Positions 1,939 to 5,626 of a stretch of DNA of 64,000 bases are shown here, piece by piece. Position 1 is the stretch's first letter. The number at the start of each line of letters is the position of its first letter. Under the pieces are notes generated by a model. It searched no databases and was not told where the DNA came from. It was given only the letters and a program-made list of their open reading frames with translations. The DNA comes from Evansella sp. LMS18 (GTDB lineage: Bacteria > Bacillota > Bacilli > Bacillales > Salisediminibacteriaceae): NCBI RefSeq assembly GCF_024362785.1, contig NZ_CP093301.1, forward strand, positions 4,774,001-4,838,000. The letters run 5' to 3'. The position numbers and the translations under genes were made by a program.

Positions 1939-3006
1939 TCAGCTGTAAATAATACGGGCAGCCTGCTCCATTATATCGTTAATAATCTCCTTAGCCGATT
2001 GTTCTTCCTTTATCATTCTTATCCCCTGCCCGGACCAGAGCGATAAATATTCTTTGTTCCCCTGCTTTTTTGCGGCTTTTCGAATTTCACCTGTTACATT
2101 ATTTTGTCCAGGATATTTTAACGGTTTGATATTTTGCCCAGAATGCAGTTCTGTGAATTCATTTTTCACTGCTCTTGCCGGTCTGCCGGAAAAACTTTTT
2201 GTAATAGTCGTACTGTCTTCGTCTGCTTCAAGAAGTGCTTGTTTATACGCCTCGTCTGTTCCGCTTTCCGCCGCATGTAAAAACCTTGTGCCTAACTGTA
2301 CCCCTGCTGCTCCTAATACCATGGAAGCGGCAAGGCCTCTTCCGTCCATAATCCCTCCTGCCGCAACTACAGGCAGCTCCACTGCATCAGCAACCTGAGG
2401 AACCAGTGACATCGTACCTACGAGAGAACCATCAGTATCTGAAACCTGGAAAGTACCCCTGTGTCCTCCAGCGTCACTTCCTTGTGCCACTATTATATCT
2501 GCCCCTGCTTTTGCAGCTTGTATCGCTTCGTTAACATTCGTTACCATTGTTATAACCTTTTGCTTATTATGTTTGGCAACAGTAAATTCTTCCTGAGAAA
2601 GAAGCCCAAAAGTCGTCGAAAGTACAGGTATTTCTTCTTCCAGAAGTACTTGAAATTGTTTCTTCGAATAATCAGCAGACCCAAAATCCCCGATGCCTGG
2701 ACGGATTCCAAGAGCTTCGTAAACAGAGGCATATTTTTCCTGGACTTCCGCTGTTCTGCTGTCCGAATCCGCTAACTCCGCTTTGAAAATATTAACGGCG
2801 AAAGGCCTCTCTGTCAGTTTCTTTATTTTTCTTATCTCCACTCTCGTAGCTTCTGGTGTCAGATAGCCCGCGGCGAGGACTCCTAGCCCCCCAGCATTCG
2901 AAACAGCAGCAACCAGCTCCGGAGTTGTGATACCACCAGCCATGGGAGCCTGAATGATGGGGTATTTAATCTCTAGTTCCTTGCAAAGTTCTGTATAAAG
3001 ATTCAT
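1939..3006 (-). CDS. Nitronate monooxygenase / FabK-like FMN enzyme
   Basis: 355 residues, a TIM-barrel flavoenzyme of the 2-nitropropane dioxygenase family. Visible marks are QAPMAGG at residues 19-25 (FMN phosphate end of the barrel), AQGSDAGGHRG at 174-184 with the putative catalytic His182, AAGGI at 215-219 and GAAGVQLGTRFL at 232-243. These enzymes oxidise alkyl nitronates; the related FabK reduces enoyl-ACP, and sequence alone does not separate the two firmly. No fatty-acid genes are nearby, which favours the nitronate role. AAGGAG precedes the ATG. It is followed by a separate minus-strand cxxc gene region and appears to be a single-gene unit. Confidence 0.85.
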   Translation of the reverse strand: MNLYTELCKELEIKYPIIQAPMAGGITTPELVAAVSNAGGLGVLAAGYLTPEATRVEIRKIKKLTERPFAVNIFKAELADSDSRTAEVQEKYASVYEALGIRPGIGDFGSADYSKKQFQVLLEEEIPVLSTTFGLLSQEEFTVAKHNKQKVITMVTNVNEAIQAAKAGADIIVAQGSDAGGHRGTFQVSDTDGSLVGTMSLVPQVADAVELPVVAAGGIMDGRGLAASMVLGAAGVQLGTRFLHAAESGTDEAYKQALLEADEDSTTITKSFSGRPARAVKNEFTELHSGQNIKPLKYPGQNNVTGEIRKAAKKQGNKEYLSLWSGQGIRMIKEEQSAKEIINDIMEQAARIIYS

Positions 3007-3216: not shown

Positions 3217-3241
3217 AAAGCACCCCGCAATATGCGGAATG
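3217..3241 (-). terminator. Rho-independent terminator after the FrnE-like gene
   Basis: On the minus strand AGCATTCCGC and GCGGGGTGCT form a stem with a short loop, followed by a run of seven T. Confidence 0.75.
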
Positions 3242-3254
3242 CTAATGGATATTG

Positions 3255-3839
3255 TTAATTCTCTTCGACGAGTTTCACCAATGCTTCATAAGGCTGAGCG
3301 CCCATGACCCCACGGTTTCCAGAGACGAAACAAGGAACTGCTGTGATGCCAATCTGCTGTGCTTCTTCATGATCAGCCAGCACCTCTTGTTCATACTCTC
3401 TTGATTCCAGCGCCTGCCGGAAATCCTCTTCATCAAGGCCCAAATCTGATGCAATTTGTGCCAGTGTATCAATATCATTAATATTTTTATTCTGCTGGAA
3501 CTGAGCTTTAAAAACCGCCTCATGATATTCATGCGCACGGCCGTTCTTCTCAGCAAACTTAGCTCCTTCAAGTGCACGTCTGGAATGTTTACTCTTGTCA
3601 TTCCAGTGCATTTCAAGACCATATTGCTCAGCCATCATCTGAACGTTTTTCTTCGCCTGTTCATAATACCCATCCGGCATCTTCGGCGGTTCCATCCCTT
3701 CCGGACGAAGTTCAAACGCCTTCCATTCTACCTCTGCGTTTTTTTCCTTAACCAACTGGTTAAGCGGGACTGTCCCGATAAAACAAAACGGTCAAAGGAA
3801 GTCGCTGTATATGATGATTTTTTTCCTTTCTTCACTCAT
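3255..3839 (-). CDS. FrnE/DsbA-family thiol oxidoreductase with in-frame UGA at the catalytic Cys (UxxC)
   Basis: The intact downstream frame covers 166 codons, but the family's N-terminal strand and CxxC site are encoded upstream in the same frame. From an ATG at 3839 (AGAGGTG site upstream) the protein reads IYSDFL-[UGA]-PFCFIG, then VEWKAFELRPEG, 194 codons in all. The UGA (3792-3794) sits exactly where the first Cys of the C-P-F-C active site belongs; the resolving Cys19 is kept, as is the cis-Pro loop (TAVPCF, Pro169). No other stop or frameshift is present. This is what a selenocysteine (UxxC) enzyme would look like, but a TGC/TGT to TGA nonsense mutation would look the same. Two perfect hairpins lie just downstream (3765-3777 and 3747-3764). 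No sel genes or tRNA-Sec occur in this window. The family is right with high confidence; whether it is a functional selenoprotein is open. Confidence 0.75.
3747..3777 (-). promoter_or_regulatory. Two adjacent perfect hairpins 3' of the UGA (possible bacterial SECIS)
   Basis: In the mRNA sense, CGGGA-CAG-TCCCG (14 nt after the UGA) is followed directly by CTTAACC-AGTT-GGTTAAG, a 7-bp stem with loop AGTT starting 34 nt after the UGA. Bacterial SECIS elements are stem-loops roughly 16-37 nt downstream of the UGA with a G early in the apical loop; the second hairpin fits that rule and the first does so poorly. Both lie in coding sequence. Confidence 0.35.
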
Positions 3840-3877: not shown

Positions 3878-4813
3878 TTATTTTACTTTAATGACAATTT
3901 TGCCTCTTGCGTGGTGGGTTTCGCTCAATTCATGGGCATCCTGGACGCCTGCTTCACTGAATTCAAAGGTACTTCCCACTATTGGCTGAAGCTGGCCTTT
4001 ATTGTATAACTCAGCAAGCTCTTCCAGCTGTGCCCCGTTTTCCTGAAGCCAGTGAAAACCTGCAGTTACGCCAGATTTTTTCGCTTCTTCTTTATCAGGA
4101 GGATTGACTATAGAAATTAATTTAGCATCTTTCTTTAAAACTTCATAACTTTTTGATTGTATCTCTCCTCCGAGGGAATCGAGAACAAAATCAAAATCTT
4201 GTAATATTTCATTGAAATTCTCGTTTTGGTAATTAATAACCTGATCCGCCCCAAGGGACCGTACAAATTCTTCATTCTTCCCGCTCGCTGTTGTGGCAAC
4301 GTAAGCACCAAGGCTCCTTGCGATTTGAAGGGCGTAAATACCGACGCCGCCTGCGCCAGCGTGAACAAGCACCTTATCTCCTTCCTGTACTTTTCCCAGG
4401 TCAACAAGGCACTGATAAGCAGTCAATCCGGCAAGAGGAATTGCCGATGCTTCTTCAAAGCTCATTTTTTCAGGCATTTTTGCCAGCTTGTCCACATCCA
4501 CTGCAGTAAATTCCGCGTAAGTTCCGTTTTTTGTTGTTGCCGGCCTTGTAAAAACACGGTCCCCTGTTTTAAATTCCGATACATTCGAGCCTGTTTCTGC
4601 TACAACGCCTGCCGCATCCCATCCGAGGATAATCGGAAATTCAAAAGGAAACATCTCCTTTAAGTATCCTTCCCGCATCTTCCAGTCGATAGGATTTACA
4701 GAGGTAGCATGAATTTCCAGAAGTACCTGGTCTTCCCCTATTTGTGGTTTTTCAACATTCCGCTCTTTCAGCTGTTCTCTTCCGCCATAATTATCAATGA
4801 CTATCGCTTTCAT
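3878..4813 (-). CDS. NADP-dependent quinone oxidoreductase-like (MDR family)
   Basis: 311 residues, shorter than classical zinc alcohol dehydrogenases and without their catalytic and structural zinc cysteines, as in quinone reductases. The GroES-like N-terminus contains SVNPIDWKMREG (about 38-49) and GWDAAGVV (about 64-71). The Rossmann domain has AGAGGVG at 152-158. The expected reaction is NAD(P)H-dependent reduction of a quinone or enone; the substrate is unknown. GGAGGC precedes the ATG. It sits between the FrnE-like gene and an SDR gene on the same strand with gaps of about 25-40 bp, so the three may form a small redox operon. Confidence 0.85.
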   Translation of the reverse strand: MKAIVIDNYGGREQLKERNVEKPQIGEDQVLLEIHATSVNPIDWKMREGYLKEMFPFEFPIILGWDAAGVVAETGSNVSEFKTGDRVFTRPATTKNGTYAEFTAVDVDKLAKMPEKMSFEEASAIPLAGLTAYQCLVDLGKVQEGDKVLVHAGAGGVGIYALQIARSLGAYVATTASGKNEEFVRSLGADQVINYQNENFNEILQDFDFVLDSLGGEIQSKSYEVLKKDAKLISIVNPPDKEEAKKSGVTAGFHWLQENGAQLEELAELYNKGQLQPIVGSTFEFSEAGVQDAHELSETHHARGKIVIKVK

Positions 4814-4837: not shown

Positions 4838-5482
4838 TTATATATCTCTTACTGCTTCTCCTATCGGCTGGTCGCCGGAAACGAGATCGAACCCTTTATT
4901 GAAGGTATTTCTCGCATCAAGGGTATAAAAGATAGTTTCTGCAACATCTTCCCGTGGAATTGATGCCCGTTCCAGGTTTTCCCCTGCCATGATTGTTCCT
5001 TCCCCCTTATCGTTCGTAAGCCCTCCAGGCCGGACGATTGTATAGGTAAGTCTGCTCAGTTCAAGCATCCTGTCTGCATAATGTTTCGCAGCAAAATATG
5101 GTTTTATCTGATCGCTCCAGTTTTCCCGGTTGTGTGCCTGGATTGCGCTGACCTGAACATAACGCATTACTCCAGCCCTTTCTGCCGCTTCTATAGTTTT
5201 TCCGGCACCGTCAAGATCAATGAGTAATGTTTTGTCAGGGCCTGTATGTCCTCCGGATCCTGCAGTGAATACCACTGCATCACAGCCTTCAGCGGCGTTG
5301 GCGATGTCTTCCACACTTCCTTCAAGATCCGCCAGCGCTGTTTCTACACCCTGGTTTTTAAACTCTTCTGCCTGTTCTTCTTTTCTGACCATCGCGCGCA
5401 CTGTATGTTTTTCACTTTCCTGTAATAACGTTACCAGGTGTCTGCCAATCTGCCCGTTTGCACCAACAACTAATACTTTCAT
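4838..5482 (-). CDS. Atypical SDR / NAD(P)-binding NmrA-like protein
   Basis: 214 residues. The N-terminal dinucleotide motif GANGQIG (7-13) comes directly after the first strand, typical of the NmrA/YhfK type of atypical short-chain dehydrogenases. ADLEG (about 52-56) and VVFTAGSGG (about 70-78) are the usual conserved strands, and VRPGGLTNDKGEG is near 150-162. There is no clear YxxxK pair in the classical position (a YFAAKHYAD stretch is near 130). It may bind NADP as a sensor or act as a reductase. AAAGGAG precedes the ATG. It is likely co-transcribed with the quinone-reductase-like gene downstream. Confidence 0.8.
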   Translation of the reverse strand: MKVLVVGANGQIGRHLVTLLQESEKHTVRAMVRKEEQAEEFKNQGVETALADLEGSVEDIANAAEGCDAVVFTAGSGGHTGPDKTLLIDLDGAGKTIEAAERAGVMRYVQVSAIQAHNRENWSDQIKPYFAAKHYADRMLELSRLTYTIVRPGGLTNDKGEGTIMAGENLERASIPREDVAETIFYTLDARNTFNKGFDLVSGDQPIGEAVRDI

Positions 5483-5626
5483 ATGATCAGACTCCTTTTC
5501 CTTTTAGTTTGGGTTGTATTATGACACTGTCATTATTCCTTAGCAAACAATTTGTTTGCCATATATTTTACTGAGATAATATTCCCTTTTTGAGTGTAAT
5601 CAATCGTCTATATCACTAAAAATAAA

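Follow-up and report, generated by a model that had tools for sequence, protein, structure and literature searches.

We asked whether a single in-frame UGA codon in a gene of Evansella sp. LMS18, whose product resembles FrnE/DsbA-type thiol oxidoreductases, is a lesion or is read as selenocysteine (Sec). The DNA analysed, a stretch of 64,000 nucleotides hereafter called the window, corresponds to positions 4774001-4838000 of a 4.90-Mb single-contig genome. An earlier note on this DNA, which gave no strand, had described a frame of 194 codons with an ATG, a ribosome site and one UGA at codon 16. Translation bore out this description and placed the frame on the minus strand (3839..3255), where the ATG at 3839 has AGAGGTG 5 nt upstream (found by eye) and the closing TAA lies at 3257-3255. 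The TGA at 3794-3792 was the sole in-frame stop ahead of this TAA, and it occupies the first position of a C-P-F-C-type redox site. The second Cys and the cis-Pro, said in the same note to be kept, were indeed in place at codons 19 and 169; Pro169 is presumed to be cis from the fold. The position of Cys19 was Cys in 46 of the 47 homologues covering that part and Ser in the remaining one (L067). Cys170, a possible third redox thiol, was found in 5 of the 7 displayed members of the window gene's own group, the nearer ones, and the other two (G564 and G800) have Tyr. The features of the locus are collected in Table 1.

Table 1. Features of the UGA gene and its surroundings, in window positions
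Feature	Position	Strand	Basis
Selenoprotein gene (very probable), FrnE/DsbA-type, 194 codons plus TAA	3255..3839	-	Translation, Pfam DSBA, UGA kept in E. clarkii
UGA codon 16, presumably read as selenocysteine	3792..3794	-	94 of 94 homologues with UGA or a Cys codon
Cys19, second residue of the U-P-F-C redox site	3783..3785	-	Translation; homologue alignment
cis-Pro169	3333..3335	-	Translation; invariant in two alignments
Cys170, next to the cis-Pro and possibly a third redox thiol	3330..3332	-	Conservation in the group
Hairpin 1 (stem of 5 pairs, CAG loop), located like the SECIS of the relatives	3765..3777	-	90% of cells paired, 8 genes
Hairpin 2 (stem of 7 pairs, AGUU loop), favoured as SECIS	3747..3764	-	92.9% of cells paired, one G-C/A-U exchange
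Zinc-type dehydrogenase/quinone oxidoreductase-like gene, just upstream	3878..4813	-	Pfam ADH_N, ADH_zinc_N_2
NAD(P)-binding SDR-like gene	4838..5482	-	Pfam NAD_binding_10
Promoter-like site before the three genes	5518..5546	-	Consensus scan, 9/12 matches, TG before the second hexamer
Terminator-like hairpin and T run behind the UGA gene	3219..3243	-	Consensus scan

The UGA codon was also present in independent genomes. The gene of E. clarkii DSM 8720 (NZ_KV917376.1) was identical at 534 of 585 nt, encoded a protein 93% identical to that of the window, and had TGA, not TGC or TGT, at the codon in question. A search of nine genomes of the genus (E 1e-20) found the orthologue only in the window's genome and in E. 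clarkii; a further genome of the genus (G004) carries a UGA gene from another subfamily. We then fetched 94 homologues, comprising 88 loci from the searches of relatives and of the order, one more Cys locus and five Chloroflexota MAGs. The position of codon 16 was UGA in 56 of them and Cys (TGT or TGC) in 38, so that the UGA stands at a redox residue that homologues have as Cys, as is expected of a bacterial selenoprotein. UGA and Cys members occur together even within one genus (g53 of family f46). All UGA homologues except one (55/56) lacked any other in-frame stop in the aligned part. Because E. clarkii and 56 of the 94 homologues carry UGA at the equivalent codon, it is not explained by chance or by a base error. 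The two Evansella copies were also compared for extra nucleotide conservation after the UGA, but the difference (1/45 versus 50/540 differing sites) was not significant (p 0.16).

Imperfect copies were seen along the way. The exceptional UGA homologue, L060 (G053:C28:231059-231631), is a second UGA copy in G053 with a further in-frame TGA and with the cis-Pro lost in the alignment, and may be decaying. A decayed copy in G351 (L118:2985-3399) lies about 0.1 kb behind selA, and its UGA stretch is missing.

We examined the genome for the machinery of Sec insertion. A tRNA-Sec with anticodon tca (62.2 bits), SelA (542 bits), SelB (363 bits) and SelD (409 bits) were each over the curated cut-off, and the four are grouped on the same contig (4864285-4870290), some 86 kb away from the UGA gene. 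The four components on which the selenoprotein reading of the earlier note depends are thus all present in this genome, as expected for a bacterial selenoprotein; of the findings that the note named as refuting this reading, neither a lack of Sec machinery nor TGC or TGT in the near relative was seen. When 14 control genomes were scored in the same way, matches over the cut-off were obtained for tRNA-Sec in 5, SelA in 1, SelB in 2 and SelD in 2, with weaker matches in more. The expectation that Sec use would be notable here needs qualifying, as it is not rare in this group: SelA was over the cut-off in 8 of 9 genomes of the genus, 179 of the 397 genomes sampled from the order have it, and Bacillales selenoproteins are already in print.

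The UGA form of the gene was associated with the Sec trait. In the 397-genome sample of the order, 118 genomes had a homologue at E 1e-25 or better, and 40 of these had the UGA form; in all 40 the UGA mapped to codon 16, every gene having been fetched. SelA was present in 39 of the 40 UGA-form genomes; of the 78 genomes whose homologues were all Cys forms 22 had it, as did 118 of the 279 that lacked a homologue (Fisher p 5e-14 for UGA-form versus Cys-only genomes, with related genomes counted apart). A set of 60 relatives, which overlaps the order sample, gave SelA in 21 of 22 genomes with UGA versus 6 of 15 with Cys. One draft genome, 80% complete (G034), had the UGA form and SelB over the cut-off but no SelA. 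Another genome, 99% complete (G400), kept the UGA gene (L106, G400:C17:167913-168473) and its hairpin with neither SelA nor SelB over the cut-off; the Sec trait may recently have been lost there.

Other in-frame UGA codons were noticed in the window's genome. The selD gene (G000:C1:4866597-4867703; L009:4597-5703) has one UGA, in SKAG-U-GCK, and is likely a selenoprotein gene itself. Two FdhA-type matches, at G000:C1:787122-787874 (minus strand) and 4357913-4358677 (plus strand), contain one in-frame TGA each and likely encode Sec formate dehydrogenases. With these three genes, the genome has up to three further likely selenoproteins.

Taken together, the Sec machinery in the genome, the UGA in E. 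clarkii and the 56 UGA and 38 Cys homologues support the reading of the gene as a selenoprotein gene. Judging from sequence, we hold it to be very probable, close to certain, that its product is a thiol oxidoreductase of the FrnE/DsbA type, presumably cytoplasmic, with selenocysteine as its first catalytic residue (U16-P-F-C19). SelA and SelD would help to make the selenocysteyl-tRNA. SelB, docked on an mRNA hairpin that closely follows the UGA, would deliver this tRNA there, and translation would continue past the codon to codon 194. In the protein, the selenolate of U16 would attack disulfides or oxidised thiols, and C19 would resolve the mixed selenosulfide.

Among the other explanations, the one that survives best, though we give it very little credence, is that this is a former selenoprotein gene in which translation past the UGA has now been lost. 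Such decay does occur elsewhere, as in the decayed copy behind selA in G351, in a locus with the UGA and a further TAG (L129) and in G400, which keeps the gene with both SelA and SelB missing at the cut-off. The frame in the window is otherwise open, however, the hairpins, SelA, SelB, SelD and tRNA-Sec are all at hand, and 93% protein identity has been kept in E. clarkii. That a normal gene of the Cys type has recently acquired a nonsense mutation, or contains a base error, as the earlier note had entertained, was not borne out and was rejected; one UGA in one genome would look identical, but the codon recurs in E. clarkii, in all eight genes of the window gene's group and in 56 of 94 homologues, and the remaining frame is conserved at the protein level, which leaves this reading scarcely any weight. 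It is just as improbable that this organism uses UGA generally as a sense codon, or that a suppressor inserts Trp or Cys at it, since other genes of the window end in UGA (for example, the nitronate monooxygenase-like gene at 1939-3006) and the genome has a dedicated Sec set, even though the frame would be open under any kind of read-through. Finally, a start at TTG 3755 would yield a 166-residue protein without the redox site, an ORF that exists and that a standard caller lists, but a DsbA-type protein devoid of its active-site helix would leave the conserved UGA, the N-terminal codons and the ribosome site (also in E. clarkii) unexplained, and we regard it as highly implausible.

The standard ORF listing did give this shortened ORF, minus the active site. 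Ordinary gene callers score a gene of this type as broken or start it past the active site, and the redox enzyme is then missing from the annotation.

We compared the RNA downstream of the codon among relatives. In the 45 nt after the codon, the mean folding energy was -12.8 kcal/mol in 29 UGA loci versus -5.3 in 19 Cys loci (p 2.5e-7, with kin counted apart). A sister subfamily comprises 37 UGA genes in which an A-E motif follows the site, and its hairpin, AGCGGA-G(G/U)(C/U)-UCCGCU, was nearly invariant: 35 genes had 6 of 6 pairs and 2 had 5 of 6, the loop began with G in 37/37 and it started 20 nt past the UGA. At the same columns, none of 38 Cys genes had 6 pairs and one had 5. This subfamily shares with the window gene the fold family, the UGA codon and a hairpin after it, but its proteins are about 35-44% identical to the window protein, and its loop differs in place and in having G first. 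A second UGA subfamily (L055, L057, L064, L070-L072) folded into a hairpin whose loop of three bases lies roughly 29 nt past the UGA, the distance being judged by eye.

The window gene's own group comprises eight genes, from the window, E. clarkii, G205, G165, G492, G418, G564 and G800, with 56-93% identity to the window protein and UGA in 8/8. The first four form one branch (SH-aLRT 99), and the last four, from other classes of the phylum, were assigned to the group by identity. They came from a search of 398 genomes of the phylum, in which seven matched at E 1e-40 or better: the window's genome, G492, G418, G564, G800, G452 (with UGA and TAG) and G144 (with Cys).

The consensus of the eight genes contained two tandem hairpins past the UGA. 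Over both hairpins, 91.7% of cells were paired versus 19.8-55.2% when the partners were slid, although pair 35-44 was unpaired in 4 of the 8 genes. Two pairs varied on both sides across the eight genes, one of them being the G-C/A-U exchange in hairpin 2. In the same eight genes, the covariation score was equally high with partners slid by -1, and 143 of 500 shuffles had as many pairs with changes on both sides. Folded alone at five lengths, the window stretch had no more than a modest advantage over shuffles (z -0.4 to -2.6), and its 50-nt fold had another stem in place of hairpin 1; the best single folds of G205, G418 and G800 did not show both hairpins together.

In the bacterial SECIS model given by a 2026 review, the apical loop is small, has G as its first or second base and lies 16-37 nt after the UGA (PMC13188914). 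Hairpin 2, whose loop lies 34 nt past the UGA and reads AGUU (AGGU in G205), agrees with this model in both G and distance. Hairpin 1 alone was considered as the SECIS and rejected; it is conserved, but its loop in the window has no G in positions 1-2, and the loop in G205 has no G at all (by eye). Since the loop of hairpin 1 breaks the G rule, we prefer hairpin 2, and in our judgement this second hairpin is probably the SECIS that SelB would bind. The close Sec/Cys pairs, together with the varied hairpin distances, make a natural set for testing what Gram-positive SelB needs, and the same gene family is suited to testing what selenium gives a thiol oxidoreductase.

The assignment to FrnE/DsbA, made in the earlier note from the letters of the DNA, held at the levels of domain, sequence and fold. 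The protein matched Pfam DSBA (PF01323) with 134.3 bits over a cut-off of 25.6, and with this domain and a UxxC site at U16-P-F-C19 it has both marks of the DsbA-like selenoprotein family. The best match among solved sequences was FrnE of Deinococcus radiodurans (1.7e-26), with SCO1869 also among the closest. A structure predicted with seven sequences had a mean pLDDT of 82.3, residues 169-175 being below 50, and its best fold match was again FrnE (TM 0.81, 34% identity). No signal peptide was apparent by eye, and the cytoplasm is the presumed location. The sole NCBIfam match was NF041057, the Rcas_1661 family of thioredoxin-like (seleno)lipoproteins (E 5.2e-17, residues 84-193), but membership was rejected, as the score, 62.2 bits, falls short of the cut-off of 190 and the active-site half lies outside the match.

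FrnE of D. radiodurans (5cnw, 5cp1, 5xwh) has a CPWC-type site, with Cys where the window protein would have Sec. It is described as a cytoplasmic disulfide reductase whose disruption makes the organism sensitive to cadmium and diamide; a CXXXXC at its C-terminus, said to occur in many but not all FrnE proteins, is proposed to restore the active site (PMC8945050). The window protein, which ends at residue 194, lacks this motif. Because the motif is not in every FrnE, we keep the label FrnE-like, in keeping with the predicted model, and do not claim that the protein is FrnE proper.

Selenoproteins of this kind are already known. DsbA-like UxxC selenoproteins appear as COG2761 in a Sargasso Sea study of 2005 (PMC1088965), three selenoproteins of three families were reported from Bacillales in 2006 (PMC1794560), 45 DsbA-like selenoproteins in 41 organisms were counted in 2016 (PMC5029168), and the 2026 review lists DsbA-like protein form 1 with UxxC and PF01323 (PMC13188914). 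As described in the sections of these sources on the family, its members share with the window protein PF01323, U-P-F-C, Sec in the first position and a downstream hairpin. Compared by description in the same sections, the window gene differs in that no Evansella is named among the known members and in that its preferred SECIS is the second of a tandem pair. A literature search found no report joining selenocysteine with Evansella or Bacillus clarkii, and a search for FrnE with selenoprotein, by title and the start of the abstract, found none on bacterial FrnE. The window gene is therefore a well-supported member of a kind already known among DsbA-like UxxC and Bacillales selenoproteins.

We also considered how Sec came into this scaffold. 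In a tree built from 55 Sec and 38 Cys rows, 93 in all, the product of a quick search and with long branches flagged, the label changed at least 11 times, at least 6 of these on starred branches. The tree and the differing places of the hairpins are compatible with Sec having entered one scaffold more than once; some or all of the changes may instead be losses to Cys. A more speculative scenario, on which we would not place an even bet, is that Sec entered the FrnE scaffold of Bacillota several times, giving SECIS loops 20, 29 and 34 nt after the UGA in three subfamilies, and that in the window's group, which is all-Sec, recognition by SelB moved to the second tandem hairpin while the first was kept as a relic or helper stem.

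The neighbourhood of the gene was compared among the same genomes. The SDR-like, dehydrogenase-like and UGA genes share one direction and probably form one operon, with a promoter-like site in front, from a scan that found 9 sites versus 5.6 expected, and a terminator-like hairpin behind, from a scan that found 6 in 3 kb versus 2.8 expected. The dehydrogenase-like neighbour was also upstream in E. clarkii (95% identity) and G165 (57%), and the SDR-like gene kept its place in E. clarkii, whereas none was found in G165. The dehydrogenase-like gene was not found in the 14 kb inspected of G205, the 3.6 kb each of G492, G418, G564 and G800, or the 5.1 kb of G351. A scan of the 64-kb window for further read-through genes gave 13 candidates, none convincing by eye; as its overlap filter also dropped the known UGA gene at 3255-3839, the scan is no proof of absence.

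In G205, the Sec-type gene comes after a Cys-type paralogue in a tandem arrangement (L120:6213-7459), behind genes of the sulfate-assimilation type (flavodoxin-reductase, sulfite-reductase, PAPS-reductase and tetrapyrrole-methylase), and G800 has a nitrite/sulfite reductase-like gene nearby. These neighbours hint at a role in sulfur or redox metabolism. A conserved protein of about 208 residues with no Pfam match adjoins the UGA gene in G418, G564 and G800 (L126:801-1424, with similar ORFs in L127 and L128).
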